A stretch of DNA of 64,000 nt from Lepidostoma basale (taxonomy: Eukaryota > Arthropoda > Insecta > Trichoptera > Lepidostomatidae), in the NCBI GenBank assembly GCA_022606425.2, contig JAHDVF020000016.1:3254501-3318500 (forward strand). The letters are read 5' to 3'. The first letter of the stretch is position 1. Every line of letters starts with the position of its first letter. The position numbers were made by a program, and so were the translations under genes. The notes under the pieces were generated by a model, which saw nothing but the letters and a program-made list of their open reading frames with translations, had not been told where the DNA came from and did no database searches. This document shows, piece by piece, positions 11,385-48,640 of the stretch.

Positions 11385-11451
11385 TAAGTAATTAAAATTA
11401 ATGAAACCGTACGTTTTACGACTTGTTTCGGCTTGCCAAAACATTATCAAA

Positions 11452-11673
11452 TATTCACTGTTAAATTAAAAAAACACTATTTTAATATCAAAAATTTTGT
11501 ATATTTTTTATAAAATCGTCGCGACAGCTGTTTCGGTAACCGATGTTGCCATCGTCAGGTGTTATAATAAACTAGTTCGTAACATCGGTTACCGAAACAG
11601 CTGTCGCGACGATTTTATAAAAAAAACTCAGTTTTTGATATTAAAACAGTGTTTTTTAATTTAACAGTGAATA
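11452..11673. repeat. Foldback element with roughly 95-bp arms
   Basis: Arms 11452-11550 and 11581-11673 are inverted copies with few mismatches (CACTGTTAAATTAAA at one end, its inverse at the other, and the shared GTCGCGACAGCTG block). Only the left arm carries the complete hammerhead-like motif; the right arm begins inside its helix II. Confidence 0.85.
11521..11562 (-). ncRNA. Hammerhead-like ribozyme motif (family 9)
   Basis: Minus strand: CUGACGA, extra U, helix II GGCAAC/GUUACC (five of six pairs) with a 4-nt loop, GAAA, palindrome ACAGCUGU, then C as the predicted cleavage base. Helix I is weak here. Confidence 0.6.
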
Positions 11674-11860
11674 AAATTAAAATATCAAAGTGTTTCCGCC
11701 AAAACAATGGATTACATTATCAAATATGTATCAAATAAATCACGTGTTATTATGCCTCAGCAAGGCCAAATATGTCAATCCCATAAAGTGTAATTAAAGT
11801 TCTGGAAATATGACATTTTCGTTCATATTATTTTTAAGATTCAGTAAACATTATATATTA

Positions 11861-12400
11861 CCTTCCCTTTTGAACTTTAAAAGATTTGGTAAAACCTGAA
11901 ATTAATATCCTGTTTATGTCAATCAAAGACAAAATATTTTGTAATATACTCGTATATCCCCGATGAATCATTTTCTTGAAATATTGCGTTAAAAGTTTCA
12001 AAAAGGTTGATACGATCACTTTCAATCAAAACCACAAATATGAGTATATGAGGAAATATCTAAATGAGAAACGCGTCAAAGTAAAAAAAGCGATTTTGTA
12101 ACAGGTGATTCTAGCACCGCGGAATGTGCGCACTGATCTCACTTCCCGCACTCATCACATTCCTTCTACAGTTTCGAAATCCATTCTTTCTAGTAGAATC
12201 ACTTACAGTGCGCTCTAAAGGTCCTCTACGCGAGTCAGAATAATTTGCACGTCCCTTCTTTACTAGGAACATTTCTATCAAAATAAAAGTCCATAGGGCT
12301 TAATAGAAAACGGAATTTTATTTTTCACCGTCATTGGGTCAATATAAGTTTATTTTAGGTTTGATATAACAAACTTACAAAACAAAACGCTGTCTTTCTG
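11861..12400. other. No recognised feature
   Basis: Single-copy AT-rich DNA; TACTCGTA at about 11946. Confidence 0.4.
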
Positions 12401-12401
12401 A

Positions 12402-12800
12402 AGGAGTAGGCAGAAATAATGGACCGCTACACAATATATTTTTTATTTATTTTTATTTATATAAAAAATACATAACAAAGCATGTATTCCCCATGAGTTA
12501 TAATTAACTCATTTTGGGCCTTAAAATAATTACAATGATTATAATATATAGCATATTCATGACAAAACACACAATTATTACAAACACAAGAATATTACAA
12601 CAAGCAGAATAAAAATCAAGATACACTAATATACTAATAATTACCACTTTCCACATACTGCCTGAGGTCATACAGCTTTAGGCTGTTCGCTACATTATTA
12701 GAGCCTCGAATACTCTCAGGAAGCCTGTTATATTCCCTACAAGCCAGTAAGTTCTCTCGCTTCTTCAGTATTCATACATCGTGTCATGCACTCACAATTA
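12402..12800 (-). mobile_element. RTE-type LINE relic split by another LINE
   Basis: AGGAGTAGGCAGAAATAATGGACCGC (12402-12427, inverse of the RTE stop region) is separated from its continuation (12758-12795: TTCTCTCGC, then ATTCATACATCGTGTCATGCA) by the insertion described next. Confidence 0.6.
12432..12757 (-). mobile_element. CR1/jockey-like LINE 3' end
   Basis: On the minus strand the first 110 bases encode CREYNRLPESIRGSNNV and NSLKLYDLRQYV followed by a stop: the C-terminus typical of jockey and CR1-type reverse transcriptases. A 3' UTR of about 210 bp follows, ending in an A-rich (TAAA)n tail (plus-strand tttatttatttt at 12440). It inserted into the older RTE copy. Confidence 0.6.
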
Positions 12801-13640
12801 TCATTAAATTCTACCTGATTACAGTTTTAGCATTTCGATAATTATATCATTGAAATATTTTATAAACATCATAGCAATAAATAGCTCCACGAGAACCAGA
12901 AAATGTTAAACAAAATGATATATGATATTTTGTGTTCATTTTATAAAAGAGTCTATAAGTAACATAATATTTTTAGGTATTAAACAAATCAAAACCAGTA
13001 ACTTCAGAACTGATATATAACTCAAATTAACAGTCTCATATATGTAGGTAGTAAAAAGAACAGGAATTGGTTATTCTCAATGAACGTGTATACTGCGCCA
13101 TTATAAATTTACCAAATATTTTTGTGTCTAGAAACCCTTGTATTATATATTTCTAATAAAATTCCAAAATCAATGAAAATGTTTTCCTCGTTATGTTGTT
13201 TCAAGTGCTCGGGATTCCTGTGAAAGAGTAAAGGGTTAAAAAGCGCTGTAAAATAATAATATTCTGTCCTAACAATAACAGAATCACGACACATGAAAAG
13301 GAAAAGTCCCCTCTGAGGGCTCATAAAGGTTCGATCATTCTCGCCGGTATTAAATGTTTATTTTCCTATAAACGGAATATTGTGGGCACATTCCACAAAA
13401 ACTTTCGCCCAAATAACGGGACACTTGTTTCTAAATAGTTCCGCCGATATTTATTTTACTCATTTTCAGTCCATCCGAATTCTTCACAAAACGGATTTTT
13501 ATAATATAAAAGTGGTTTGATCCCAACTCCCTGTACTCTATACGGGTTTTTGGGTTATGGGTCGATAATTTATATACACATAATTTTACGAAAAGAAATG
13601 ATGTTAAAAACTTTTCTTGAGAAATGATGTTAAATTCCAT
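12801..13640. other. No recognised feature
   Basis: AT-rich single-copy DNA. Short frames at 13109-13324 and 13431-13640 (minus) have no motifs. Confidence 0.4.
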
Positions 13641-13646
13641 ATTTAA

Positions 13647-13790
13647 TAATTAATATGTACTAATGAAACCGTATGTTTTAGAAGTTATACTCGTATTTAG
13701 ACATTGGATAATGCCTTAGACAGGCAAAACCTGTTTTAAAATAAACTTTCTAGAAAACAGACAATTTCATTGGAATTAATTAAATAAATG
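13647..13790. repeat. 'GATAATGCC' foldback element
   Basis: Inverted arms TACTAATGAAACCGTATGTTTTAGAAG and its counterpart at 13745-13775. Between them on the plus strand (13704-13735) is GGAUAAU, helix GCCU/AGGC, AAAA and CUGUU: the family version of the hammerhead-like motif with a degraded core. Confidence 0.6.
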
Positions 13791-13925
13791 AAACACAAAT
13801 ACCTTTCATTCTTGAAATAAATCCTTTTCTTTCCGCCTGACATCAAAATTTATTTAGAAACCATTATTTTTACTTAAATCTTTTAGTTTATTTCTAAAAT
13901 ATTTCACCAAATACCAAAATTCTGT

Positions 13926-14590
13926 ACTAGAGACCCCAATCGTTTATACCATAAGTAGACCCCCGGTCCCCATGGGGCCCCTGGAGGGAGCTGAGGGGTA
14001 ATTCTGGCCCTGGGGGAGTAGGGGAGCCCTGTAAAGCAAAAAGGGGGCCATGAGGTGCTAAAATGTAAAACCTTTTAGAATTTTTAAAATCTGTTATAAC
14101 ACGATGTACATACCTATATAATTTGTTACACACTAAAAGCTATTGATAAAATCACCTTAAAAATAAATATCATCTATGATTTTGTGATGTTTCAATTAAT
14201 CATATACGTACACCTGTATTAGTTTTACACTTTCTCTGATATTATTGACTTATAATAAAAACATTTATTATGTATATTTTCGAATTGTTTTATTTCCAAA
14301 ATACCTTTCTGAAATTAGAAAAATACTCTCGTAGAATATTTTTTAGCGATTTCACACCAGGTTCGTTATTGACACTACATCAAGTTCGTCTTTCTCATTA
14401 CGATTATTTAGTAAATATGAATTACTCAACTATAACAAACTACTATAACTATAAGTAAGTATACAAAAAAGGGTTTCACGACATTTTTCAGTTTTGTTTC
14501 ATTAAAAAAAAGGTAAATTTCCAGGGAACCTGATGTAATTTTGTGTTCAAAAGGGGGGCCATGGGTCAAAAAAGTTTAGGAACCTATGGT
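13926..14590. mobile_element. Possible hAT-derived element
   Basis: The right end (about 14545-14590: GGGGGGCCATGGGTC, AGTTTAGGAACCTATGG) resembles hAT termini. The left part (13926-14065) contains GGGGCCCC, GGGGGCCATGAGG and an imperfect inverse of the right end (TTTATACCATAAG). No transposase is seen inside. Ends and target duplication could not be fixed. Confidence 0.3.
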
Positions 14591-16320
14591 TTATACGAAC
14601 TACGTAAAATAGTATTTTTTGAACCGTTAACCATACTCATTTTTGATAAGACGATAAAAATATATCTTAACCTACGATTTTATATTAAAATGTATATGTG
14701 TTACTCTTTGCAGAAAACTTACTTTACCCCCGTGTGGACCGTCTAATGATGTTATCTTACACACTATCGTACATAGATAGTTTATTAAAAACGTGGTCTT
14801 ATAAAGAACAAAATTCTTTGAAACAAAACTATTCCTTAGAACGCCGACCGCGCGTGTTTAGACGTTTCTTGGAACAAAGAAATACTTTTAGTCTGAATGT
14901 AGATTTGAGATATTATTCGCAAGTCGGCCGTGAGAAGGGTTGACACCAGCCGGTCCTGGCGGGGGGAGCTGCGGCCTCCGAGGATAGCCCTTACCTGGGA
15001 CGTGAACAGATATACGGGAAAGTGTCATATTTTATAAATGGTGTCGTAACGCTGGATTAGAAGATGAAAAAAGCTTTTTGTTTTTTTGTGTGTCCGCTTT
15101 GAAATTCGCGAATTTTGAACATTTCACCGTGTTTATTTATAAATATAGTACGTTTTTTTAGATAAGGTGTCAGAGTAATCTGAACAATTGAATAAGGTTT
15201 TATTAAGTGAGGTTTATAGTTAAATATATTATGTATACGAGTATATATATATTTTTAAATATTGACAAACATAACTTTAACATACATACATAGCGGTATT
15301 TTTTCTAGAAAAATAATGTAAATTACCAAATTAAATAATTCAAATGAATGAAAACGATTATTTTGTAGATGTTTTGCTGAAAGGCATAATAATGATGAAT
15401 AATGTTTAAACATGGCGAAATATGCATTTCTTGTTGAATGTAATAAAACTTTTAGAAAACAGACGTTTACAACAAAATTTAAAATTATTTATTTGCATAA
15501 TGGTTAAGAACCATTTTCGACGACCAAATTTTAATTTTCCTTTATACTTAGGCAAATGTTTGTGAAGCTAAGAATATTGTACCAACTTTTTATCTTAGTA
15601 TTACAATAAATGTACCAAAAGGCAAGTTTAATTAAAAGTAAAAGAGTCAACAACTCCCTAATCCAAGAGTAGAGATGTTTAAGAAAACGACTACTGGATG
15701 CCTAAACCCGAACGTTTCCGACCAAAATCACCCGATCTCCAGCAACAGATATAAACTCTGATTGGAAACCCGAGAAAGCAATCTCAGTGAAAAACCAAAG
15801 GAAATTCACCTGAAGTTCGCACCTCGTCAGGAGAACTAATAAAGAAGGAAAAGGAAAGAATCAGCTGAAGAGTAATCCATCAAAGTAACGCAAAAAATAT
15901 TTATTCTCAGAGATTTAATATTATATCGTTCCGCGAGGTTACCTTTATTACCACATCGCCTTTATTCTTCACAATTTGAGTGTTTGTGTTTTTTTTTCAG
16001 AGTGCATCGTATCACGTTACGTATTTGTTCGTGTTTCATATTACATATATCCATTGACCAGTTATTATAAATAAGTTTATGATTTAAAATATTCTACTGT
16101 CCTAAATTGTATTTATACAACTGAAAATATCGAGCTAAAATAATAATAAATAATATCAGAAAGAAGAAGAGCAAAATCATGACAAATTCATTTAATCATA
16201 AAAAATAAAAAATTCTTCTATTTATTTATTATTTATTTAGGTTAACAAACAGCGACTTGGGTCATTTTGCATCACTCTGCAGGAAAACGTTATTTACAAA
16301 TTATCAATATTAAAATAATG
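14591..16320. other. Mostly empty spacer
   Basis: An 81-codon plus-strand frame (14698-14943) has no recognisable domain and I do not call it a gene. 14941-15010 is a short GC-rich patch. 15400-15470 resembles the right arm of the GATAATGCC family (GGCGAAATATGC, then AATAAAACTTTTAGAAAACAGACG). 15620-15890 is purine-rich single-copy DNA. Confidence 0.4.
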
Positions 16321-16350
16321 AAAACATCAGTTATTATATTCCTTAGATAA

Positions 16351-16384
16351 AAAGCTTGGGTCCAAGCGAAACTTGTTGGCATCA
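16351..16384 (+). ncRNA. Hammerhead-like motif, 3' part (family 3)
   Basis: The 5' core has decayed, but helix II GCUUGG/CCAAGC (six perfect pairs, GU loop), GAAA, CUUGU and U are present, followed by GGCATCAATTATAATAACC. The related copy at 44804 has GUUUGG/CCAAAC, so one base pair changed on both sides. Confidence 0.6.
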
Positions 16385-16432
16385 ATTATAATAACCGTTC
16401 CGTGGTAAAAACAATACACAGTTTGTGTATAG

Positions 16433-16470
16433 CCCTGAGGAAGCTCGCTAGAGTAAAATCCGGTTGGCGC
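16433..16470 (+). ncRNA. Hammerhead-like motif (family 2)
   Basis: CUGAGGA, extra A, helix II GCUC/GAGU, then AAAAU where GAAAC is expected (mutated), CCGGU, U. Helix I is GCC upstream and GGC downstream. GTTTGTGTATAGCCCTGA matches the 23616 copy. Confidence 0.6.
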
Positions 16471-16783
16471 AATTTATAAGATGTTTTTTATACAAAGTAT
16501 TAAAAACATGTTTAATTCAATAATAGAATGGTTGTTAAATCTCAGTGGAATATAAGGATATAAATGCGAAGCAATAGAAAAGACAACTTGGTAAATGACG
16601 ATTAAAAAATAATCTTGGTAAAAAAAACTTTTAAATTCTTAATGCAAGAGAAATGTGTTGAATGCATGGCAAAACGATTTATTATTTTTTCTATATTAGC
16701 CAATCAATTTCTGTTGTGGGTTCACATTTGAATTAATTTTTGGAAACATTATATTATCACAACACTTTTTTCACTTTTCACAA

Positions 16784-16880
16784 ACATGTTTCGGGACACA
16801 AACTTTCCTTCTTCAGTGTATGAATTTTAACCTTTTTAAAATTCATACACTGAAGAAGGGAAGTTTGTGTCCCGAAACAA
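16784..16880. ncRNA. Two hammerhead-like motifs head to head (family 1)
   Basis: Minus-strand copy 16784-16820 and plus-strand copy 16847-16880 form a near-perfect hairpin around an AT loop. Each has CUGAAGA, extra A, helix II GGGA/UCCC (GGAA on the minus copy), then GAAAC. The minus copy continues with the palindrome ACAUGU and U, with helix I UACA/UGUG. Confidence 0.75.
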
Positions 16881-17025
16881 TTTATTAGTTAGTACTCGTA
16901 AAAGTTTCATACATTGTATTTGCTATTCTAAAATTTAAGCAACAACTAAACAGTAGTGGGTGCATGTTTTTAAAAAAAAAGAAAAAATATTATTACCATA
17001 AATATTTTAACTAATTAACTAATTA

Positions 17026-18408: not shown

Positions 18409-18599
18409 AATATAAAAAATATTCCTGGAATCGATTTCGGCCGAAAAATTGTTTTGTTATGATTCCAGACATTTGCAGCTCTAATTGATGAAAAAACAAT
18501 AAGGCGTCACCAACCCAATGGACATATTATATTTAAATTTAGTAGTAAAAAAACATAAGTACCAATTTTTCAAACATTTTTTGAAAATATGTCATCATT

Positions 18600-18950
18600 C
18601 ATTAATTTCTCGGCGCTACATCACGGTGTGGGACTTGGCCTCCTCCACAACGGTCCTCTTCTTCACTGACTTCTGTCTCTGGCCATCTCTTCATACCCCA
18701 GCTCCTTCCATTTTCTCCCAATCTTCTTCCGCGCCCATCTTTTCCTCGGTCTGCCTCTTGGCCACTTTTCGCGGAGCACCCATCTGGATATAATTTGTGG
18801 TGTTCTACCCTCTGGCATTCTTTCCACATGGCCAGCCCACCGTAGGCGTTGAGACTTACAGAACCTCAATACTGTTTCATGGTTAATCAGTTCTTCAAGT
18901 TCAAGGTTTCTTTTAATTCTGCAAGACCCATCTTCTAGCGTGGGTCCAAA
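18600..18950 (-). mobile_element. LINE C-terminal fragment, second RTE-like family
   Basis: The minus-strand frame carries LRWAGHVERMPEGRTP, RGRPRKRWARKKIG and upstream CRIKRNLELEELINHET, the familiar C-terminal block of RTE-like ORF2. The same family recurs at 58512-58660 (tctggccatctcttcat region). 5'-truncated and frameshifted. Confidence 0.75.
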
Positions 18951-19140
18951 AAAAATTCTCTATAATAAAATTTTAAATCCATTATATTGAATACGAATCC
19001 TCTTGAATAACTTTAATACCAATATTTAAATTCAGTAAATTTTACATAATTAATTTAAGATTATTTTTGTACAGAATCGGGTTTACCACCCCTGATCTGT
19101 TTGTATATAAAGTATTCAGTTTGCAATAGTGTCACCAGTA

Positions 19141-19178
19141 TGTCGATGCCAGCGCTCCTGGCGAAACTGGTCGCTGTC
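19141..19178 (+). ncRNA. Hammerhead-like motif (family 6)
   Basis: Core reduced to UGUCGA, then U, helix II GCCAG/CUGGC (five perfect pairs), GAAA, CUGGU, C. Downstream GCTGTC is shared with the copies at 35648 and 48593. Confidence 0.55.
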
Positions 19179-21430
19179 TAAAAAAGACAAAAGTGAAAAG
19201 ATTGAAAAAATATCGTTTTATTTAATAATTATTCAGAAATATTCGATTAATTTTTCTTCAGATATCGAAGTTAATGGATATTTTTCTTAACTTTCGATTA
19301 TTGTTTTGTCACATATTTTATAAATTAATAATATAAATACATAAAAGCATTTTTTCAATTAAACAAAAAAGGAATTTCAATTAGATTCTTTATAAATGTG
19401 ATCAATGGCAGAGTTCGTTTGGAGTACTTCCAACAATTTATTAAAAAGTCTTGTACAAAGGAAATGCGAACTTTTAGACGCGAATATTGTATGAAAAGGG
19501 ATAATGAGAAAATATGAGTAACAAAGAGTTTTCAGTGGCGATATCAATTCAGTGGTTATTATTCTGTAGTGAGTAGGAAGAAATAATTTTCTGGAAAATC
19601 GATTCAACCATTACGAAAGTTTCGCAATGAAAAGAATAGAAATTGCTATCTTGGTGCTTAGAAAGGATTTGGAGGTTTAAGGCATCGTCTTATTAACCGG
19701 AGCCAACAATAGTTGTTCTCGTTCTTAGAAATAATTATACATTTCAGTGGATGACTTTCAAAGCCAATTTTGAAGACAAACTTTAGTGTTTTTTGAACAA
19801 TATGTAATTAGTTATAAACACAAAAATATGTTATACAATAACAATAAAGCAAAATTTGTCATTACCATTTTTAAATCAAATAAAACCCACATCTTTAATT
19901 AACAAGTATTTCAAAAATCATTAAAAAGCATGTAAAAAACATAACATAAAGTTAATATTAAATGCAAACTATTAAATTAATTAAACAGTTTATAATGTTG
20001 AAGTTTAACTTTGGTTAGGCCAAAACAATGGAGTATTTAAATATTAAATGATAAGATATGTTTTATTTTATATTTTTATTTATTATTTCCATAACGATGA
20101 TGTGAAAATTCATACAAAATAATTAATACTAATGAAAACGTTTGTTTTCTAGAAGTAAAATTTAATTATATTGGATTGACATGTATCGCCTTCTAATTAT
20201 ACAAAAAGGCACATATGGTAATGCCTTAAAAATACGATACATATCGTTCGTATAAATTATTATATTTTTATTGTATAACAAGGCCACACATTTTTTTATT
20301 TTACTCAGTTTGGATGGAAGGAGGAGAATTTGAAAAATAAAAAACAGCGCAGAGGAATTTCTGATATAATATTTTATTTCGTTCATTACTTTTATTTGAA
20401 TACATAATTTGAGTTGTTATTTAAACATTATTTTTTCTTGCATTATCTTCCGATAACATTCCTCCATATTTCGTTTTCTACCGTTGTCCTTCACTGCCTT
20501 TACTCATATATATTGAAAACTCTTTAAGTCTTAAATTTAACGACTGTGTATGGAATATTCAAAGTATAATATGTAGAAAGATTTGTTGAACATGTTAATT
20601 AAAATCCATTCATCAGAATTTTATTCGTATCTTGTAACAAATAAATAATAAACTATAGTTTAATAAACATCCCTGAGAGAAGTTGATTTAACATAAAATA
20701 CTCGTATTTAAGATTTGGAGCAACAACTAGACACACATAGCTTCGTAAGAAAAATTTAATTATATAATTTAAAAACCATCGATTTGATACCTACTACCCG
20801 CCGCTGTTGAATAATTTCTGCCTAGTTTCTATTTATTTTAGTTAACAGTTATAAAATAGGCAGGTTAAAATGAAATTTGTATATAAATATATACGTAAAG
20901 TTTAACGTAGAAAAACCTTTTATTTATTTATACTTTTAGAACAAGTAAAAACTAATTTAAATAACTAAAGTGAACAGCGTTATTTAAATTTTTTTTATGG
21001 AATTAAGCGTTGAATCACTATCATAACTAATTCATTTAGTAATAAAATCAATTTTAAATCTGAGACTAAAAATAAGATTTCTCCAACTCGGAATGAATTT
21101 TTCAAAGATTTCAAGAGTTCAAATTCATATAAAATATACTCGTACATTGTTTTATTGTACATGAACTTGTAAATATCTGAAGCAACACAGTTCATAATTT
21201 TGATTTTTTCTTCAAAAATATGGAATAATATAATGGTAAATTATAATAAAGAATCATTGAATGAAGCCTAATCCAATGTTTAGTTTATAATTAGGAGTAA
21301 TGTCACCTAATTTAAAACGATTTAAAATTCTTTCAAAATCCAGTTCAAATCTAGTTTACGCAAGTATTCGCGGATTCGGAGAAACAGACTGAAAATCTAA
21401 TAGTAAAACAAAGAGCAAGGAAAGTGTTTA
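19179..21430. other. AT-rich spacer with one foldback fragment
   Basis: 20080-20260 matches the left arm of the GATAATGCC family (CGATGATGTGAAAATTCATA, AATGAAAACGTTTGTTTTCT, then GACATGTATCGCC). TACTCGTA occurs at about 20699 and 21138. No gene recognised. Confidence 0.45.
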
Positions 21431-21439
21431 TAAGGAAGA

Positions 21440-22032: not shown

Positions 22033-22245
22033 CTATTTTTCTTTTTTATGCACTTTGTATACAACACTGATATTAAAAAAATAAAATTAGATAAACATGT
22101 TTCGGACAAACAGTCCTTCTTCGGTAAAGATACATATTTATAAAAATATTATAACATTGTTGATGTTTACAAATTCTGACAGATATCTATCTAATTTTAT
22201 TTTTTTAATATCAGTGTTGTTTATACAAAGTGTATAAAAAAAATA
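22033..22245. repeat. Foldback element, family 1
   Basis: Inverted arms at about 22033-22092 and 22188-22245 share ATCTAATTTTATTTTTTTAA, TATCAGTGTTG and ACAAAGTG. The left arm joins the ribozyme motif directly. The right arm lacks it, and its homology starts at the base following the predicted cleavage site. Confidence 0.8.
22094..22126 (-). ncRNA. Hammerhead-like motif (family 1)
   Basis: Minus strand: CCGAAGA (U4 changed to C), extra A, helix II GGAC/GUCC (perfect), GAAA, palindrome ACAUGU, U. Confidence 0.65.
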
Positions 22246-22249
22246 GATT

Positions 22250-23570
22250 AACCATCAGTACAACACAAAGTATGGCGTATATAGAAAAAAAGAAATAGTT
22301 TTTGAAAAAATAAATGTTATGGCTTTAAAGATTTTTTATTGTAAATTCATTTTACATATACGAGTACTTGGAAATATGTTATAATATTTTTCCAAATTTT
22401 CTTTTTAAAAGTATACAAAGCTAATTAGAATCAATAATAAGTGAAAATTACTTTATATGAATAACGAATTGATAACATAAGAAGTATCACAAAATATAGT
22501 ATATGATATGAAATATTTCCTTATAACAAAACTAAAATGTTTAAACCCAATCCCTTTACCCAAACAAAAATATAAAATCTGGTTCTAGCAGAAGCCACGC
22601 TGAAAATAATTAGGGAACAAAAACAACACTCTTGAAAATTAGTCAGAAGTCTGCTGTTTAACAAAATCACCACCATCTTGGTTTTATCCCTTTGCCACTT
22701 CTCCCTTTCACTCCTTAATCTAGAATCATAAAGTCAACCCCGCCCACAAGTCACACCTGACAGATACGAATATACGCCCTTTGATAATGGTGCTGGCGGA
22801 ATCGGAACACGTGTTCCATAATGATTAAATTTACTCCTTTCTTGATACGTCACGTGTTGTGAGATCGGCTGTGTCAGGAACAGAACAAATTATTGAACAA
22901 TTCAGGTCAGAACCGCGTGGGTAATAATAAACTATTATATTAATAACATAATAACATAATTTTTGACAGAGATTTCGAATATAAATTGAAATTAATATTT
23001 ATGAGAACATCACATATTAAATTCTAAAGGGGATAATATGGTATATTGGTGTAAAGGCAACAGAGAAACATTGGAAATATCAAGAATTTAGATCCTAATC
23101 CTGGAATAACTAACTAACTAACCATCACGCCGTTTTCACGATATTCTACAATACATTGTTTTTCCGCTCATTCTTCTTAGTCATCTCATTTCTGTAGCAT
23201 TAATTGTACTTTAACCCTTCTTCTGCCAACTCCAAGCTTCACTTCTTCTTCTTCTTCCGAGGTCGGCAGAAGAAAACTAGTACGTAATCTTGAATAATTA
23301 CGCTAGTTGTTTCGTTATATACATTTTATTTCATTAATTTATAAATTATTTTACGAAAATGATACATAACAGATGAACAAAATTTCGGCGAATCGTTTGG
23401 ACATAACACTAATTAACAAAAATATAATTATAAGATGAAAAAATATATGATATATGATATATATATACTTTAAAAGAAAAAATATATTTCAGAAAGATCC
23501 CAAATACGTCGACGTCGCGTCGGTGAGACAGTTCTCTTTTCAGAATTGATAATATATTTAAAAATAAAGT
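22250..23570. other. Spacer with an RTE 3' tip
   Basis: 23107-23140 (aactaactaactaaccatca, then cgccgttttc) is the last 35 bp of the RTE family on the minus strand, including the (TTAG)n tail. TACGAGTA lies at about 22360. The rest is single-copy and AT-rich. Confidence 0.5.
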
Positions 23571-23575
23571 GAAAT

Positions 23576-23722
23576 AATTTTTCACTTAGTATAAACCACT
23601 TTATTTGAGTAAGTAGCGCCAACCGGTTTCACTCTGTAGCGACCTTCTTCAGGGCTATACACAAACTGTTTGGCGCCACTTACTCGAATAAAGTAGTTTA
23701 TACTTAGAAAAAAAAAATTACT
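23576..23722. repeat. Foldback element, family 2
   Basis: Arms 23576-23622 and 23669-23722 are inverse copies (CTTAGTATAAACCACTTTAT; TAAAGTAGTTTATACTTAG). The motif lies between them, joined to the left arm. The right arm begins at GGCGCC, the predicted first base after cleavage. Confidence 0.85.
23616..23655 (-). ncRNA. Hammerhead-like motif (family 2)
   Basis: Minus strand: CUGAAGA, extra A, helix II GGUC/GAGU (three of four pairs), GAAA, palindrome ACCGGU, U. Helix I GCC/GGC. Confidence 0.7.
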
Positions 23723-25939: not shown

Positions 25940-26060
25940 GATCGTAAATATTATTGTTTTAAGACTTATTATTTGATAATGCCTTAGAAGGGCGAAACAT
26001 GTCATTCCCATAAAATATAATAAAACTTCTACATAGAAAACTGACATTTTCATTCGTATT
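25940..26060 (+). repeat. 'GATAATGCC' element, right half
   Basis: From the motif (25972-26005) it runs CATTCCCATAAAATATAATA, AAACTTCT, AGAAAACTGACATTTTCATTCG, matching the right arm of the complete copy at 26635. No left arm here. Confidence 0.65.
25972..26005 (+). ncRNA. Hammerhead-like motif (family 8)
   Basis: UUGAUAA in place of CUGANGA, then U, helix II GCCUU/AGGGC (one G-U pair), GAAA, palindrome ACAUGU, C. The core has two changes and helix I is not evident, so it may be inactive. Confidence 0.5.
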
Positions 26061-28933: not shown

Positions 28934-29071
28934 ATTATGTATTTATGTAGGTAGTAGGTAGTTTCGGCAGCTTGCTGCCATCGTCTGGTGTCTGGTCACC
29001 AGACGATAGCAGCAAGCTGCCGAAACCGGTCGAACAGAAACACAAGTGGAAGCACACTAAATACATAATTA
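28934..29071. repeat. Foldback element, family 5, with two hammerhead-like motifs
   Basis: The ends are inverse (ATTATGTATTTA, TAAATACATAAT). Inside, minus motif 28957-28990 and plus motif 28996-29030: CAGACGA, U, helix II GGCAGC/GCUGCC (six pairs; AGCAGC on the plus copy), GAAAC; the plus copy ends in palindrome ACCGGU, C. Confidence 0.8.
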
Positions 29072-32140: not shown

Positions 32141-32288
32141 TTTAAAAAGATTTTGATTAGAGACAAAAAAAATATCGTCATACAAAATAAAATACAAAAA
32201 AACGTTCCTTAATAAATCTTTATAACGTCTGTCAAAACTGATCATATTTTTAAACAATTTAATATTTTAAATACGTATCTGTATAATA

Positions 32289-32322
32289 TCACTGAAGAAG
32301 GACCGGTTGTTCGAAACATGTC
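32289..32322 (+). ncRNA. Hammerhead-like motif (family 1), best conserved
   Basis: CUGAAGA, extra A, helix II GGAC/GUUC (four pairs), GAAA, palindrome ACAUGU, C. Helix I is AUCA immediately upstream and UGAU immediately after the predicted cleavage base. The downstream arm AGTTAGTGTTGTATATAC is shared with 22033 and 41379. Confidence 0.75.
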
Positions 32323-32400
32323 TGATTTTAATTTTTTTTTAAAGTTAGTGTTGTATATACTTAAAAAGTATGAAAAAAAAAAAATGACAAACGAAAAAAA

Positions 32401-33836: not shown

Positions 33837-34048
33837 GGAATTCCATAATGACGATTTTTTGTATGTATTAAAACACTGTTATTTTCACTTTTGAGTTTAT
33901 TTTTCTCTACATATTTCGAAGGTTATACACCTTCATCATCGGGAGAACGAATTAACTGATTTTATCGTTCTCTCGATGGCGAAGGTGTAAAACCTTCGAA
34001 ATATGTCGAGAAAAATAAACTCTTAAGTGGAAATAACAGTGTTTTAAT
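33837..34048. repeat. Foldback element, family 7, with two hammerhead-like motifs
   Basis: Arms 33867-33945 and 33960-34048 are inverse (TAAAACACTGTTATTTTCAC, GAGTTTATTTTTCTC). Minus motif 33907-33945: CCGAUGA, U, helix II GAAGGU/ACCUUC (six perfect pairs), GAAA, UAUGU, A. Plus motif 33965-34009: UCGAUGG, C, same helix, GAAA, UAUGU, C. In both, helix I is UUCUC upstream and GAGAA downstream, five perfect pairs. The left flank GGAATTCCATAATGACGAT recurs at 48095. Confidence 0.85.
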
Positions 34049-34079
34049 TCTTAAAAAAATCGAATTTATTATTTCTTAA

Positions 34080-34944: not shown

Positions 34945-35075
34945 TTTATCTGTTGGAGCTTGGTCAGGGTAACATAAACAAACAACATGTTTTTTAATTA
35001 AGTTTGTTTTTATAACCCTGATGAAGCTTCGATATGAGTGAAACCGGTTGGTTTGATAAAACAAAATAAAATGGT
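34945..35075. repeat. Foldback element, family 4
   Basis: ATTTTGTTTTATC and GATAAAACAAAAT are inverse outer ends. The left arm holds a deleted motif (minus 34951-34970, CUGACCAAGCUCC), the right arm the full one. Confidence 0.65.
35014..35050 (+). ncRNA. Hammerhead-like motif (family 4)
   Basis: CUGAUGA (exact core), extra A, helix II GCUU/GAGU, GAAA, palindrome ACCGGU, U. Helix I AACC/GGUU adjoins the core exactly. Confidence 0.72.
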
Positions 35076-35239: not shown

Positions 35240-36060
35240 TGAGTTAATATATCAGAAAATTATATTACAAATTAATATTCATAGTTGAATTGATGGCTCG
35301 GATTCAACCTTTGACACGCGTTGATGGATAAGTTATCCCCTTATTCAGTTATAGATAGTGCGTACATGAGCGCCCCCAGACTCTGCATATAATAATACAC
35401 CCGCATAGCTTTGCTTTTAGCATGGAAAACTTGTCGATTTCAGTCCAATCCATTCATTTTAACAAATGGAACAGTAGCGAATATAGTATAAAAACTTCAC
35501 TACCGGCTTAAAATAAATACTATTATACAAATGCCTTTAGTATTTAAGCTGACTTTTTTAGGGAGATCTAATGATTTTACTGAAAATCCTTAATAGAGGT
35601 TCATTTGAAATAATAATGAAATAAATATCTGTATTTCCTGTTCTTTTGGTACCAGCGAGCCCGGCAAACCAGGTCGCTGTCGAAATAAATACAAAAGTAA
35701 ATGGAATTCTTAAAAAATCATTTAATTGCTCTATTATTAAAATTAAGCATACGTATTTTAATAGACAGGTTTTTAGACACATTTTAAAAATCCACTGTAG
35801 CATCATTACGTAATTTACGGAAATGATAGACACATTTACGCTGATTTGGTTTTCTAGGATACATATTATATGTGTCACACAGAATATCAACTTTTGGTCG
35901 GATTTAAATTTTGTTTGTGACCATTATTGTAAGTACCTATCTCGCTTTCGCGCATCTTTCGTATATGTAATATTACAGTTTCGCCACTGCGTCAAGTTAA
36001 ATGATTTTAAATAAAATACACTTTTAGTAATTTGTATTAACACCTTTTTATTTGGTAACA
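35240..36060. other. Spacer with a decayed motif at 35648-35683
   Basis: Plus 35648-35683: ACCAG-CGAGC-CCGGC, AAACCAGGUC, GCTGTCGAAATAAA; a family 6 copy with a damaged helix and no 5' core. Otherwise single-copy. Confidence 0.45.
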
Positions 36061-36097
36061 CCAACCAGTTTCGCTCCCGTCGGAGCTTCGTCAGGGT
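36061..36097 (-). ncRNA. Hammerhead-like motif (family 4)
   Basis: Minus strand: CUGACGA (matches consensus), extra A, helix II GCUCC/GGAGC (five perfect pairs, 4-nt loop), GAAA, CUGGU, U. Helix I CACC/GGUG. With 35014 this shows paired changes in helix I (AACC/GGUU). Confidence 0.75.
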
Positions 36098-36156
36098 GAG
36101 AGAGTAAACTGAATATGGTTCGTAAAAAAAGCTTCGTCAGGGTGAGAAAGTAAACT
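36084..36156. repeat. 27-bp direct repeat
   Basis: AGCTTCGTCAGGGTGAGA.AGTAAACT occurs at 36084-36110 and 36130-36156, duplicating the 5' part of the ribozyme motif and its upstream flank. Confidence 0.85.
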
Positions 36157-40585: not shown

Positions 40586-40587
40586 TA

Positions 40588-40962
40588 ATAATACAACAAC
40601 ATTTTGAATGTATACAAATTCTTGTAGACAAATACTAGATTTCACCCATTGCGGATAAATTATTTTTATTTTACAAGGATTAATTGTATCTCAATAGAGA
40701 CGAAGATGCAAATTGTTTTTCTGGGAACAGAAGGTGGTGGCCGAGGCGCTTACAGGACTTATGACCTGTCATTGGTTGGGTTGAGCGATCGCTTCACGTT
40801 TAACAACATTCCCCATTCCGCCGTTTCCAATTTGCATCTTCGTCTCTATTGAGATACAATTAATCCTTATAAAATAAAAATAATTTATCCGCAATGGGTG
40901 AAATCCAGTATTTGTCTACAAGAATTTGTATTCTTTCAAAATGTTGTTGTATAAATATTACT
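40588..40962. repeat. Large foldback carrying a family G core
   Basis: Arms 40588-40716 and 40828-40962 are near-perfect inverse copies (ACAACAACATTTTGAATG, CTTGTAGACAAATAC, GGATAAATTATTTTTATTTT, AATTGTATCTCAATAGAGAC). The 110-bp centre is the GGTGGCCGAGGCGCTTACAG, CATTGGTTGGG, GCGATCGCTTC block of family G. Arm similarity is high, so it formed or moved recently. Confidence 0.85.
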
Positions 40963-40974
40963 GGTACATGCAGG

Positions 40975-41336
40975 CAAAAAATTGAAGAGACATCTCCAGG
41001 CGAAATCTAGTACTGTATGATTTGCATAGACTTTCACAGTACATTAATAAAGGTTTTCTGCTTAATGCTTTCTAATCTTAATATAGATGACGCTAGTGTA
41101 GAGTGAACGTAAAAATGTGAAAATAGGTGTAGAAACCTACCATATATACAAGTTCCAAAAAGTTTGTCAGACGTGGTGGTCATAACGGCGGAATGGGGAA
41201 TGTTGTTAAACGTGAAGCGATCGCTCAACCCAACCAATGACAGGTCATAAGTCCTGTAAGCGCCTCGGCCACCACCTTCTGTTCCCAGAAAATAATTTGC
41301 ATCTTCGTCTTTATTGAGATACAATTAATCCTTGTA
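40975..41336 (-). repeat. SINE-like repeat, family G, full copy
   Basis: Inverse of the 29885 copy and more complete: GATGTCTCTTCAAT end at 40975, then TGACGCTAGTGTAGAG, TTGTCAGACGTGGTGGTCAT, the GCGATCGCT block, and AGATACAATTAATCC at 41336. About 360 bp, no coding frame. Confidence 0.75.
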
Positions 41337-41378
41337 AAATTTTATAATATTTTAAATATGTATCTTTATAATATGTAT

Positions 41379-41412
41379 CACTGAAGAAGAACTGGTTGTC
41401 CGAAACATGTCT
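41379..41412 (+). ncRNA. Hammerhead-like motif (family 1)
   Basis: CUGAAGA, extra A, helix II GAAC/GUCC (one mismatch), GAAA, palindrome ACAUGU, C. Upstream ATATTTTAAATATGTATC and downstream AGTGTTGTATA are shared with 32289. Confidence 0.65.
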
Positions 41413-41615
41413 ATGAGTTTTAATATTTTTTAAATGTAAGTGTTGTATACCATATACAAAGTATTTAAAAAAAACAGAAATTAATATTTACATATTTATA
41501 TTATGTATTGTGGTGTTTAATAATAATGCAAAACTCGATTTTTTTTTTAAATTTAACTATCTAATTATATCATCCCATTTTTCTGTAGGGCTGGCCTTTT
41601 TTCATTTTAATTTGC

Positions 41616-43215: not shown

Positions 43216-43263
43216 TAATAGCCAGAGCTACATTAGATTAATTATAGCAATTTTATTTATCGA

Positions 43264-43400
43264 AGACCATCCTGGCATAGAAGCAAGAGCTATGACTGCC
43301 ATACAGAACGTCCCGGGTTTTATTCCCGGCGATGGCGTCTTTGGTCTGGTGTAGAATTAACCTGACAATAAAATGGCGATAGATTAGCTACAAATTCAAT
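43264..43400 (+). mobile_element. SINE fragment, same family as 47016
   Basis: GACTGCCAT, CCCGGGTTTTATTCCCGGCG (mutated B box), GTCTGGTGTAGAATTAAC, GACAATAAAATGGCGATAGA. The A-box region is lost. Confidence 0.7.
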
Positions 43401-44221: not shown

Positions 44222-44405
44222 CTAGATAAAAAAGTGGACAAGGCGACTGCTGTGCTGGTGCACAGTTATGTTAGCACAACGATAACCAGAAGAGTCCGGG
44301 AAATGCCTGGATGCAGATCGCTCAGGATAGAAGGGAGTGGAAAGTACGAGAGGGGGCCTACGTTCAGGAGTGGATGGCCACAAAAGGCTGAAGAAGAAAA
44401 ATAAT
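44222..44405 (+). mobile_element. LINE 3' fragment with (GAA)n tail
   Basis: Plus frame IAQDRREWKVREGAYVQEWM, ATKG and a stop, then gaagaagaaa. AQDRREW..VQEW is the usual end of RTE-like ORF2. Confidence 0.6.
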
Positions 44406-44424
44406 ATTATATTTATTATAGCAT

Positions 44425-44778
44425 ATAAGTTGGAGTGACATCTCCAGGCGATATCTTGCAATACGAATATGGCGGTAGCCTTTCATATTGCGTTAAAAAG
44501 ATCTTCTGCTTAATGCTTAAAATCCAATCTTCATTGATGGCGCTAGTGTGTAGATTGAAACTACCATGTAAAGGGTGGTGTTACAGATTAACATATATAC
44601 AACTTCCAAAAAATTGTCAGACATGGTGGTCATAAGAAAAAGTGGAATGGGGAATGTTGTATTACACAAAGCGTGCGCTTAACCCAACCAATGACAGGTC
44701 ATAAGTCCTATAAACACCTGGATCACCATATTCTGTTTCCAATTTGCATCTTAGTCACTATTGAGATACAATTAATCC
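44425..44778 (-). repeat. SINE-like repeat, family G
   Basis: Inverse copy: GTGACATCTCCAGGCGA, ATGGCGCTAGTGTG, TGTCAGACATGGTGGTCAT, CCAACCAATGACAGGTCAT, TTGAGATACAATTAATCC. More diverged from the 40975 copy than the 40588 foldback is. Confidence 0.72.
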
Positions 44779-44803
44779 AAAAATAATATGGTTATTATAT
44801 TTA

Positions 44804-44844
44804 ATGCCAACTAGTTTCGTTTGGACCCAAACTTCATCAGGGCA
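44804..44844 (-). ncRNA. Hammerhead-like motif (family 3)
   Basis: Minus strand: CUGAUGA (exact), extra A, helix II GUUUGG/CCAAAC (six perfect pairs, GU loop), GAAA, palindrome ACUAGU, U. Helix I UGCC/GGCA. Confidence 0.75.
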
Positions 44845-44852
44845 ATATATTA

Positions 44853-45940
44853 GGTCCTTACATATGAAATTGGCGTTTTGCCTTACTGGCAACTTTGATC
44901 TCAAATATCTTCTCTTTGGTTAGGAATTCCAAATTCAAATTTATACAGCTATTTACTCAAGTATTTGTGTTTCGAAAATTATAATTCATTTGTTTTTTCC
45001 TCAATTGTTTTTTTTTCTTTGCGTCACTCAGTTTACAAAATGGAAAACTTGAAATATCGCGTTATTTCCGAGTATGAGTTCCACCGTGGCAAAAGAAAAC
45101 ACTGCCACACAAAGCTGCGGTGTTAGTGATAAAACTGTTTTAATCCACTTGAAGCAAATTGGGAAGGTGAAAAAGCTTGAAAGGTGGGTACCTCACGAAT
45201 TGAGTGAAGCAAATCAACAAACGCGCGTTGACTGCTGCGTTGCATTACTCAACCGGCACAATAATGAAGGGATTTTGAATCGAATCATTACCTGTGATGA
45301 AAAGTGGATCCTATATGATAATCGGAAGCGCTCATCGCGATGGCTGAACCCTGCCAAACCAGCCAAACCATGCCCCAAGCGAAAATTGACTCCAAAAAAG
45401 TTACTTGTGAGCGTTTGGTGGACTAGTGCTAGTGTCGTTCACTACAGCTTTCTTAAATCTGGCCAGACGATTACGGCAGATGTCTTTTGTCAGCAACTGC
45501 AAACCATGATGGAAAAGCAAGCTGCTAAACAACCGAGGCTGGTTAATTGCTCTAGGCCACTGCTGCTTCATGATGACGCTAGACCACACACTGCACAACA
45601 GACGGCTACCAAATTAGAAGAGCTTCAATTGGAATGTCTAAGACATCCACCGTACTCTCCGGACTTTGCCCTAACAGATTACTATTTTTTTGGAAATTTG
45701 GATAACTTCTTGCAAGGGAAAAAATTCAACTCCGATGGGGCAGTCCAAACCGACTTCAAAGATTTTATTGATTCCCGTCCGAATGTTTTTTTTTGTAAAG
45801 GGATTGATGAACTACCTATGAGATGGCAAAAGTGCATAGATAGCAATGGTACATACTTTGATTAAATAAATATATAATATTTAAAAAAAATCAACTTTAT
45901 GTTCCTCCCATACAAAACGCCAATTTCATATGTAAGGACC
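44853..45940 (+). mobile_element. mariner element, internally deleted
   Basis: 1,088 bp, flanked by TA on both sides. The TIRs are perfect over about 28 bp (GGTCCTTACATATGAAATTG at the left, its inverse at 45913-45940). Terminal and coding similarity place it in the mariner group that includes the human SETMAR transposase domain. It lacks about 200 bp relative to a full element. Confidence 0.92.
45040..45865 (+). pseudogene. mariner transposase, N-terminal domain deleted
   Basis: The original start is probably the ATG at 45040 (MENLKYRVISEYEF), whose frame runs into a stop after 28 codons. The long frame (45074-45865) resumes later in the protein at KTVLIHLKQIGKVKKL and WVPHELSE. So most of the DNA-binding helix-turn-helix region is missing and the frame is shifted. 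The catalytic domain is complete: TCDEKWI (Asp codon 45296), LHDDARPHT (45572; Asn of the usual HDNARPH is Asp), LTDYYFF (45677), giving D,D34D. The C-terminus RWQKCIDSNGTYFD matches the family. It could not bind its own ends, but the catalytic part is unbroken. Confidence 0.88.
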
Positions 45941-45990
45941 TAATATTAACTATTTAGGCATCAATTATAATAACCATACCGTGGTTTAAT

Positions 45991-47010
45991 ACAAAGTGAC
46001 CATTGTTTTGATCGAAACACTATGATACCTTAACATTTTAAACTGTTAATGAATCAACTTTGTTTTCTGTATCACAATTGTATTTTATTTTATGCGACAG
46101 CTGTTTAAATTACAAGTGTTTTGTTATTTTATATCAGTAAGTTTAAAATATCCAACCACAGAGTGAGTACTTCAATTCATTAAAAATTGTTAAATATACA
46201 TTTTTAATTTATATAAACATATGATGGTAAGATTTTCACCCACAATAAAACATAAATTGCGTACAATATTAATAAATTCTTTTCATGGAAACATCTTCAA
46301 AGAAATAAAGTTTTCTAGCATTTCAGGTTGTAAAAAAATGTATAACGAGTGCCTGGCCATTTTGTTTGTTTCACAATAATATAGCAATCGCATACCCGAC
46401 CCGGAAAAGAAAACGATATTTTCATCTGGAAAAACAAACATTTGGCATCTCCCGCGGGACTCCAACCGGGACTCGCGTGCTTATAAACCTTTCCCACAAC
46501 TCCGCACATACCGAAACATTTTTACTTTCTTCCCTGTTTTTTAAGGGATTTTATTTTCAGTGGAGTTATTGGGGGCTGTCTTGGTGGAATAGGAAATGTA
46601 CATTTTAAGAAAGATTAATTTTTTTGGAGAAAAGAGTACAATATTTTAGAAAATAAATTTCTCATTTATCTTAAAAACTATTTTCTCATTTTTTATATCA
46701 CGCAGATCGGTGGGTTTGAGAATAAATTATTCTTTAAAAAATTGGTATTTATCATTAACAATTTCTTAAAAAAAAATTATTTTGATTCGAAACCACAAGA
46801 CACCACTGTTTTTATTTATTGTATAAATTTGCTTGTACCGAATGTTTATGTTAAAACTATTTCATAAAAACATCAATATATAGTTTTTAAACATCACATT
46901 TTTAGCAAGGAAGGTGCCTCAACATGCGGTGTTTCTATAACCATAACACTCGGTGTCCCTGAAAACGACACAAAGTTGACCAAACCTTCCACCACAATGG
47001 CGAGAGAAAT
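45991..47010. other. Single-copy stretch
   Basis: 46360-46600 is slightly GC-richer with frames on both strands and no recognisable domain. No repeats seen. Confidence 0.35.
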
Positions 47011-47015
47011 AGAAG

Positions 47016-47270
47016 AGATGAGGCTTCGTGGCCGAGTGGTAAGTGCATTGACTGCCACCCCGAAGGTTCCAGGTTCGATTCCCGGCGAGGGCAGTGTGAT
47101 TGTCACACTGTCTTTGCTCTGGTGTAGAATTCACGTGACAATAAAATGGCGATAGATTTGCTACCTATCACATGTCACGAGAATCACTATGATAGCTACA
47201 TATAATTCCCTTTACATCGATTTGGCTCATGCTGTCATGATGTAAAGAGCGATTCAATAACAATAAAATA
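47016..47270 (+). mobile_element. tRNA-derived SINE
   Basis: RNA polymerase III A box TGGCCGAGTGG (47029-47039) and B box GGTTCGATTCC (47072-47082) are correctly spaced in a tRNA-like head. A tRNA-unrelated body follows (GTGTAGAATTCACGTGACAA, AAAATGGCGATAGA, CTACCTATCACATGTCA) and an A-rich tail near 47260. Fragments of the same family lie at 43264 and 27060. Some LINE in the genome must supply its reverse transcriptase. Confidence 0.85.
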
Positions 47271-47885
47271 AAAAATTAATAATAATTTAGGGCCATCTCT
47301 ACCAAAATAGCTTGCCGAACAAAAAAAGAAAAAGAATGATCGATATTATTTGTTGAATTATTACAAACAAACCCTTGTTGATTATTTTAACGACTTAAAA
47401 AAGTTTTGAGAGGTTTCTATAAAATTGTTATTTTAAAACTTTTTTTTTTAATAAATATTCATAAAATACATAAAGCAAAAATTGATCACAAATAATAACA
47501 TATTTTATCAACACACATGGGTTGCCAATATTTACTAAGTGCGAGGTGTGTAACTGAAAATCATGTCTGTACTTTAGCAACGAATTGAAATACGTTACGC
47601 ACGTAGGTACTATGGTATCATAAATATTGTAGTCTTGTGTGTTCACTGAGTAAGTACTCCCCGGTACACCGCACATATAGACTTCTTGTTACTTTATGAG
47701 TGCCTCAATGCCTGGATAAAGGTAACGGTTTGTCAGTGCCAGGGGATGGACCTACCGCTAGAGAGGGGTGCTGACTAGTAAACACTCTCATGTGCTGTGA
47801 ATAAATATTAAGTAGAAAGATAAATTATATTAAATAAATCATTTTTAAATATTGAGCTTTTTCTGATTTACGTTTTCTTATTTAC
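47271..47885. other. No recognised feature
   Basis: Single-copy AT-rich DNA; a GC-richer patch at 47690-47800 has no match. Confidence 0.4.
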
Positions 47886-47889
47886 GGAA

Positions 47890-48090
47890 CAATAATCTTT
47901 AACTCCGTATTAAATAATTAAAATAATTAAAAAGTACAAGTAATACGCCGGTTATCTAGAAGATTTATTATATTATATTTTATTGAAATGACATATTTTG
48001 TCTTGCTAAGGCTTTATCAAATAGAGATTTAATAAGGCTTTGCAAGGCTAAATATATTATTCCTTTTAGAAAAACTAAACGTGTTAATAC
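47890..48090. repeat. 'GATAATGCC' foldback element
   Basis: Left arm ACAATAATCTTTAACTCCG, CGGTTATCTAGAAG, minus motif 47989-48021 (UUGAUAA, A, GCCUU/AAGAC, AAAA, UAUGU, C). Right arm 48032-48090 with GGCTTTGCAAGGC and AGAAAAACTAAACGTG. Confidence 0.65.
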
Positions 48091-48093
48091 AGG

Positions 48094-48200
48094 GGAATTC
48101 CATAATGACGATATTTAATGATTTAAAATACTGTTTTTTTCACTTGATTTTATTTTTCTCGACATGTTTCGAAGGTTTTTCATCTTCATCATCGGAAATT
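48094..48200 (-). ncRNA. Hammerhead-like motif (family 7) with its arm
   Basis: The arm GGGAATTCCATAATGACGAT at 48094 matches 33836. Motif 48158-48197, minus: CCGAUGA, U, helix II GAAGAU/ACCUUC (one mismatch), GAAA, palindrome ACAUGU, C, then GAGAAAAATAAAA as at 33907. Confidence 0.65.
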
Positions 48201-48555
48201 CAATAGAACATCTAGAACATATGTTATCTGGAAGCTGAGGCATTATTGTATGTTGATAATAATAAAGTAAGGTGAAATTCATTCCGAAAAAAGGGAAACC
48301 AAACTTAAAGAAAACAGACGCTACCTATATATTTATTAAGGGTAACACACAGCAATTGTGATGCATATATAAAAATATATAGATACAATTAAACAATGCC
48401 AATTACATACTACCACAAATATGAATGATTTTAAGAATTAATAGTACAGACTTATAAAACGAAGTCGAAATTAATCTTGATTCAAATAAAACAAATGTAA
48501 TATTTAAAAATGGTAAAATAAAATATAATAATGATTAAATAAAACAATGTTTTTT
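48201..48555. other. No recognised feature
   Basis: AT-rich single-copy DNA. Confidence 0.4.
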
Positions 48556-48560
48556 AACTA

Positions 48561-48640
48561 CGTTGTCGAAATAAAGACAAAAGACTTTATTTCGACAACG
48601 ACCGGTTTTGCCAGGCTCGCTGGCACCTTTATTATTTAAA
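48561..48640 (-). ncRNA. Family 6 foldback with hammerhead-like 3' part
   Basis: 48561-48600 is a hairpin: CGTTGTCGAAATAAAG and its inverse. The minus motif 48593-48627 keeps helix II GCCAG/CUGGC (five perfect pairs), AAAACCGGUC. The second arm ends at the base matching the predicted cleavage site (GGTC then GTTGTC). The 5' core is missing. Confidence 0.6.

Follow-up and report, generated by a model that had tools for sequence, protein, structure and literature searches.

Hammerhead-like motifs dispersed in a caddisfly genome very probably derive from Penelope-like elements

The stretch analyzed here (the window) is 64 kb of the 768.8-Mb genome of Lepidostoma basale, which is assembled in 1,572 contigs. 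It holds a piggyBac frame, a mariner transposase frame and a BEL/Pao element, has a GC content mostly of 28–40% with the BEL/Pao stretch excepted, and contains no tRNA by ARAGORN and no Rfam family above gathering scores. Dispersed through it are short motifs that resemble hammerhead ribozymes, and these are very probably minimal type I hammerheads residing in the pseudo-long terminal repeats (pLTRs) of several families of Penelope-like elements (PLEs) and in the short, often palindromic derivatives of those families. A sequence-only reading of the window had counted more than twenty such motifs in unrelated repeats. The skeleton it described is present and non-random, but only four of the 25 sites inspected are intact and two are nearly so, the other 19 being decayed or arms of palindromes.

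The four copies with an intact core and all three helices (32292+, 35018+, 36094- and 44840-) each consist of CUGANGA, an extra A, helix II of 4–6 bp, GAA, a 6-nt A..U palindrome that would form helix III, C or U, and a helix I of four pairs. The F1 copy (32286–32328, plus strand) reads AUCA-CUGAAGA-A-[GGAC..GUUC]-GAA-ACAUGU-C^UGAU. Two others belong to family F3: F3a (35012–35055, plus strand) reads AACC-CUGAUGA-A-[GCUU..GAGU]-GAA-ACCGGU-U^GGUU and is followed, 67 nt past the predicted cleavage site, by a PLE-like start codon (MPHHKLSVS), and F3b (36057–36100, minus strand) reads CACC-CUGACGA-A-[GCUCC..GGAGC]-GAA-ACUGGU-U^GGUG, with one G-U pair within its helix III palindrome. The F4 copy (44803–44846, minus strand) reads UGCC-CUGAUGA-A-[GUUUGG..CCAAAC]-GAA-ACUAGU-U^GGCA. 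Its element is interrupted by a mariner copy (44847–45946; transposase frame 45074–45865), whose 34-bp termini are identical in inverted order (44847–44880 and 45946–45913). Two further copies, both F2 on the minus strand, have one core change. The first, 33942- (33902–33948; UUCUC-...-U-[GAAGGU..ACCUUC]-GAA-AUAUGU-A^GAGAA), has the core CCGAUGA, in which U4 is replaced by C; the second, 48195- (48155–48201), also has one helix II mismatch and shows a start-codon-like MEFPCINTFSF 57 nt past the predicted cleavage site. All five helix I pairings that the sequence-only reading had placed directly against the core are present, in the four intact copies and in 33942-.

The remaining sites show how the motif decays. 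An F1 copy (41375–41420, plus strand) has an intact core and a broken helix I; an F3c copy (23615–23658, minus strand) has an intact core with three of four pairs in both helix I and helix II; and sites such as 11558-, 22124-, 25974+ and 28982- have a disrupted helix I or core. An F4 remnant (16331–16389, plus strand) has lost its core and retains helix II (GCUUGG/CCAAGC), helix III and the 3' strand of helix I, and an F3c-type remnant lies at 16423–16481 (plus strand). The D17 repeat family carries a decayed motif at 25962–26020 (plus strand; UUGAUAA-U-[GCCUU..AGGGC]-GAA-ACAUGU-C, helix I broken), with more decayed members near 11747, 13706, 20216 and 26740. The copy that had been proposed at 19141, a decayed family G motif (19134–19178, plus strand), does have its helix II (GCCAG/CUGGC), but its core reads AUGUCGA, with the U at position 6 that its family carries. 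One site, 15742-, fits the search descriptor with one mismatch, is tied to no repeat family and was taken as chance.

Several motifs lie in palindromic elements. At 33852–34062, an F2 motif occupies each arm of a head-to-head element (33942- on the minus strand; core UCGAUGG at 33977+ on the plus strand), and at 16776–16889 the arms, within 16787–16879, each hold a hammerhead-like motif (16816- and 16850+). The members of each pair are arms of a single element and do not count as independent copies. A decayed F1 motif (22078–22136, minus strand) sits inside the palindromic element at 22042–22241, and decayed hammerhead-like arms are found in the elements at 28961–29026 (core CAGACGA) and 11471–11657 (arm at 11558-). 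A further structure at 40586–41292, to which no hammerhead family is tied, consists of nested inverted repeats, one of 109 bp with 100% complementarity and one of 130 bp with 95%.

The window motifs are genuine and exceed chance. A full descriptor (core CTGANGA, 0–1 or 0–2 inserted nt, helix II, GAA, an A..T palindrome, a base other than G, and helix I of at least 3 bp) found four window sites without core mismatch and three with one, whereas 20 dinucleotide shuffles contained neither kind; with the core letters rearranged, it found 0 sites for 119 of the 179 other orders. Because the descriptor was derived from the sequence-only reading's own list, the test was repeated on 200 kb not looked at before, which adjoin the window on its contig (L007–L026) and bring the total to 264 kb. 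There the true core gave two intact-core sites, two of the 179 permuted cores gave one each and the rest gave 0, so this test is thin by itself. Across the 264 kb, 6, 12 and 7 sites had zero, one and two core mismatches; reversing the sequence gave 0, 0 and 5, and 24 shuffles averaged 0, 0.42 and 5.9. Sites with two mismatches are thus at chance level. When nothing but the unpaired core and the A....U-H element was used to select sites, so that the outer A-U of helix III was the sole pair built in, the 264 kb held 17 sites, against a mean of 1.83 (maximum 14) per core over the 179 permuted cores. The sequence-only reading had also proposed a search of the whole genome. The pattern CTGANGAN{10,18}CGAAACNNGTH, which prescribes the final C of helix II and two helix III pairs out of three, no other pairing, and excludes G at position 17, matched 26,919 sites (13,502 and 13,417 on the two strands) compared with 10 for the backwards pattern, and a narrower F3/F4 pattern matched 3,342 sites and 0 backwards. 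Among viral contigs, CTGANGAAGN{6,16}CGAAACNNGTTGG hit five; the helices are absent there, and inspection by eye classed these hits as chance.

Comparison among copies supports the hammerhead fold well. At the 17 core-only sites, helix I has on average 2.94 of 4 pairs (1.56 in permuted-core controls), helix II 3.41 of 4 in the register with one extra nt (1.46 in controls; 1.88 versus 1.64 without the extra nt), and helix III 2.76 of 3 (1.97 in controls, one pair being built in). All three helices are found in 8 of the 17 sites and in 0 of 328 control sites. Eight of the 17 copies share one length, and in their ungapped alignment 84.4% of the cells are paired, falling to 33–44% when partners are slid by 1–3 positions; six of eight pairs have changed on both sides, and covariation is 0.478, compared with 0.225 after shuffling and with 0 of 500 shuffles as high. 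Covariation scores are inflated by related sequences, and the whole-genome test therefore weighs more. Per-site statistics of the genome-wide patterns refer to the first 100 places listed, which for the 26,919-site pattern are confined to contigs C1 and C2. At these sites, pairs 2–4 of helix II average 2.70 of 3, against 1.65 with swapped partners (the highest of 2,000 shuffles reached 1.98) and 1.74 and 1.52 in registers with no or two extra nt; for the 78 distinct rows the values are 2.62 and 1.56, and 13 fully paired helix II types occur. Pairing is thus kept while sequence changes, as had been claimed, in copies selected without any requirement for pairing in helices I and II.

The unpaired positions fit the same fold. 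Position 7, a free position in hammerhead cores, varies among the 100 listed sites (A 42, U 21, G 21, C 16). Position 17, where the pattern excludes G, is C 50, U 48 and A 2; without the G restriction, it is U or C in all 15 cases in the 264 kb (U 9, C 6). A single A or U follows the core in 98 of 100 listed sites (A 78, U 20, G 1, C 1 after A9), again as described before. The inner dinucleotide of helix III is self-complementary at 87 of 100 listed core-pattern sites and 91 of 100 listed F3/F4 places, the other two pairs being built into both patterns. A hammerhead core in the strict sense (CUGANGA...GAA, A15.1-U16.1, H17) is found in the four intact window copies; family G (U6) and F2 (C4) depart from it. 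We consider the predicted fold supported because pairing persists in copies chosen without it, N7 is variable and position 17 is C or U. The hammerhead interpretation of the sequence-only reading thus holds as to the fold, but it missed the identity of the elements as PLEs.

That identity rests on the company the motifs keep. A search of the genome with the Pfam profile of the GIY-YIG domain gave at least 62 matches (150 of 541 candidates scored). Of 20 GIY-YIG loci fetched, eight (L032, L033, L034, L038, L039, L044, L045 and L046) hold at least one motif with no more than one core change, and ten (L030, L031, L034, L036, L037 and L040–L044) carry F7-type pLTR sequence by BLAST. Motifs with at most one core change number 15 in ~64 kb of GIY-YIG loci, compared with 11 in the 200 kb adjoining the window. 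At one locus, L047, an open frame of 758 amino acids with RVT_1 (1.4e-13) and GIY-YIG (6.6e-5) matches is flanked by two outward-pointing family G motifs; this is a PLE with one inverted and one direct pLTR. About 35–40 nt upstream of its motif at 3669+ we noted by eye a TATA-like GTATATAAAG, which would place the start of transcription near helix I. The PLE protein has named relatives in moths and butterflies (Phthorimaea, Euphydryas) and in other insects. Families G and F7 and one F3-like copy adjoin PLE frames, and placement of the pLTR at a frame with both reverse transcriptase (RT) and GIY-YIG domains is seen for family G, at L047, and not for F1, F2 or F4 themselves.

Pieces of such elements also lie in the window. 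Sequence at 18412–19233 (plus strand) is a PLE remnant, of which 18412–18592 and 18962–19233 are 72% and 85% identical to the part of L047 after the RT and GIY-YIG frame (3' untranslated region and pLTR). At 35566–35738, a PLE tail fragment (35566–35625, 85% to L047) accompanies a family G pLTR fragment (35652–35738, 77% to the family G seed), and at 48527–48680 a family G pLTR fragment (48527–48625, minus strand) accompanies a PLE tail fragment (48629–48680, 94% to L047). Moreover, of 23 copies examined, 7 from families F7, F2, F3 and G have a PLE-like start codon after the motif, with the readings MEFHSANALAFN, MEFHNLNAL, MEFHSVNAL, MEFPCINTF, MPHHKLSVS, MIHHKLSTS and MNFHQEISVK; in six of the seven it lies 57–70 nt downstream of the predicted cut, by hand-derived distances. 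Insect PLE proteins with similar starts include MEFHQVP (P0005) and MNFRKVTPDS (P0021, Euphydryas editha), and of 120 related proteins listed, three start exactly with M-x-[FHYL]-H and others similarly (MDFRKVTPDS, MFHQVP). Two other repeats of the window recur at GIY-YIG loci: a tRNA-like stretch at 47022–47093, under the Rfam cut-off (26.0 versus 29 bits) and within sequence 92% identical to L034, is probably the head of a short interspersed element, and a repeat at 9176–9683 and 48698–49205, with an open frame that has no Pfam match and 73% similarity to L045:974–1482, is perhaps a fragment of a long interspersed element.

Family G is the most abundant PLE motif family counted, with 6,150 places in the genome and 0 for the backwards pattern (for example, L047:692- and 3669+). 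Its core is altered: among 100 listed places, 98 have U at position 6, one has A and one has C, as scored by eye. The combination of a fixed A6-to-U change with an extra U after A9, next to sister families with canonical cores, might mark an active, unrecognized core variant, perhaps one activated by the PLE protein, or else a recognition or priming structure that does not cleave, although we put this forward only tentatively. If true, family G and its canonical sisters would constitute, within one genome, a natural side-by-side test of what PLE hammerheads are for. The literature searched, which did not extend to Cervera & de la Pena 2014 or Luense, Weinberg & Breaker 2017, yielded no description of a PLE family with U6 in thousands of strict-pattern copies or with a constant extra A or U.

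How copies are arranged bears on whether they could act as dimers. Family G motifs less than 600 nt apart, among the first 100 places, form 15 head-to-head pairs and one tandem pair (n = 16), and 15 of 20 pairs less than 3,500 nt apart are head-to-head. Among 100 listed F3/F4 places, all six same-family pairs closer than 1,000 nt are head-to-head, one more pair being two families in tandem. With a loose pattern, pairs closer than 500 nt are head-to-head in seven of seven cases in the 264 kb, and in 23 loci (L027–L049) comprise one head-to-head, two tandem and one tail-to-tail pair. A read-through transcript of a head-to-head pair contains one ribozyme and one antisense copy, and thus no cis dimer can arise from it. 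The suggestion that a palindromic helix III suits dimers fits in principle, given how often the palindrome is kept, but the neighboring copies are mostly not in the tandem order of a cis dimer. Dimers could form between molecules or within tandem PLEs.

We also considered whether copies start at the ribozyme cut, aligning ten seed sequences with the 264 kb and 23 loci, and rejected the idea: only 3 of 161 alignment rows, at two places, begin within 3 nt of the cut. One arm seemed to begin at the predicted cut in three palindromic elements (22042–22241, 44790–45985 and 23530–23700), and in these a weaker alignment extends upstream of it. In a fourth (at 48.6 kb), a 16-bp match begins one nt before the predicted cut, and one family G row begins 4 nt before. 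Starts 28–37 nt ahead of the cut, immediately 5' of the core, are common among the rows, but they are confounded, since distant families have the core in common.

In the model that we favor, the pLTR would be transcribed and helices I and II of the RNA would fold so as to enclose the CUGANGA...GAA core, two copies would pair through the self-complementary 6-nt helix III, and the RNA would be cut after C17 or U17, 57–70 nt upstream of the PLE start codon in families with a readable codon. Cleavage, dimer formation and a role in processing or insertion are what we infer from the patterns above. That the intact copies are able to cut is likely; that cutting matters for transposition is a somewhat weaker proposition, which we would put at slightly less than even.

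A number of observations weigh against this picture. Rfam hammerhead models, a check that the sequence-only reading had named, match nothing in the window at gathering thresholds or at E ≤ 10, nor in six other loci at E ≤ 10, even at intact copies; these models overlook the motifs. Helix II does not join the core directly at A9, the extra nt being absent from canonical hammerheads. The hammerhead of chrysanthemum chlorotic mottle viroid, a viroid ribozyme with longer helices, reportedly has one extra nt between A9 and helix II, as here. An extra nt in a hammerhead is the subject of de la Pena & Flores 2001. Family G has U where A is expected at position 6. The mostly head-to-head order of close pairs does not favor cis dimers, and RNAcofold returned the intended dimer (both helix II hairpins formed, palindromes paired) for only two of nine copies, 36094 and the F8 copy of L038; in six of the nine, a helix II strand of one molecule pairs with that of the other, and family G takes up a different fold. 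On the PLE side, F1 and F4 have no RT and endonuclease frame of their own found attached and share only the motif architecture, no PLE-like start codon was recovered in 16 of the 23 copies, the likeness of those recovered depends on few residues, and the first Met of the L047 frame comes only at residue 159, so that the frame is perhaps 5'-truncated.

Of the alternatives, the one that survives best leaves the PLE identity untouched. The motif could be derived from a hammerhead and kept as a structure in RNA or for priming of complementary DNA, bound by the PLE reverse transcriptase, with cutting no longer needed. Family G, which retains helices and palindrome despite U6 in thousands of copies, is consistent with this, as is the fact that 5' ends of copies are not enriched where the cut is predicted; passages of a study of an Anolis PLE report that insertion in vitro was unaffected by hammerhead mutants and that cleavage required the PLE protein (PMC11167929). 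A pure binding hairpin, however, has no need for joint fixation of all these unpaired bases, and the other families keep the catalytic bases, a variable N7 and C or U at 17. We regard such a binding structure as possible but unlikely. Far less probable is that the motifs belong to animal retrozymes, small non-LTR elements with circular RNAs and type I hammerheads, rather than to PLE pLTRs. Retrozymes too carry type I hammerheads in short non-autonomous repeats and, in the parts of PMC7229834 and PMC7761336 concerned, are linked to PLEs, but Tandem Repeats Finder found no 170–400-nt tandem array in the window, most close pairs stand head-to-head, helix III consists of no more than a palindrome, and families G, F7 and an F3-like copy stand at PLE frames. 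Lastly, ordinary inverted-repeat DNA elements, such as miniature inverted-repeat transposable elements or fold-back termini with palindromes that happen to resemble helices, are scarcely credible: several copies do lie inside short palindromic elements (33852–34062, 22042–22241, 16787–16879), but the pairing tested is within one arm and occurs also at 32292, 35018 and 36094, where no second arm was found, reversed and shuffled sequences yield no intact-core sites, permuted cores yield 0 of 119 in the window and two single sites over 179 in the 200 kb, and family G arms match pLTRs beside an RT and GIY-YIG frame.

Apart from the PLE-derived hammerheads, the BEL/Pao element of the window (50709–57775) stands out: its terminal repeats are identical for 300 nt or more, and it has ~62% GC in a region of ~33% GC.

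More broadly, tens of thousands of sites, with several canonical-core families and one large changed-core family, coexist in one genome. Because canonical and changed cores occur side by side, the need for cleavage could be tested by comparing them and by simple transcription assays. The kind of motif is known: citing papers (PMC7761336, PMC6466107) trace minimal PLE hammerheads to a report of 2014 and their cleavage as dimers to one of 2017, so the window motifs join a class whose action as dimers is already published. Titles and abstracts found on hammerheads in Lepidoptera or Heliconius and on retrotransposons of insect genomes describe no PLE hammerheads of these insects.

According to passages in PMC7761336 and PMC6466107, the minimal type I hammerheads of PLEs (Cervera & de la Pena 2014; Luense, Weinberg & Breaker 2017) are likewise located in pLTRs, dispersed by the thousand in non-coding DNA and built on a very short palindromic helix III; a passage of PMC6466107 says that they need a tandem arrangement, which is rare around the copies here. 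Animal retrozymes, in the part of PMC7229834 that treats them, likewise place type I hammerheads in small non-autonomous repeats, and cleavage by those with a weak helix III improves in dimers; retrozymes, however, occur in tandem and as circles, whereas the copies described here are scattered and frequently inverted. Penelope families of Adineta vaga share head-to-head inverted pLTRs, a pLTR that runs into the first codons of the open reading frame, and solo pLTRs; the relevant passages of PMC3846280 explain the palindromic junctions of inverted Penelope pLTRs by self-priming, give a low copy number and do not mention a ribozyme motif. In PAc, the Poseidon/Penelope element of Anolis, a hammerhead likewise sits at the junction of pLTR and open reading frame, but the passages of PMC11167929 that describe it place the cut 26 nt downstream of the start codon, whereas the predicted cut in Lepidostoma basale lies 57–70 nt upstream of a putative one.

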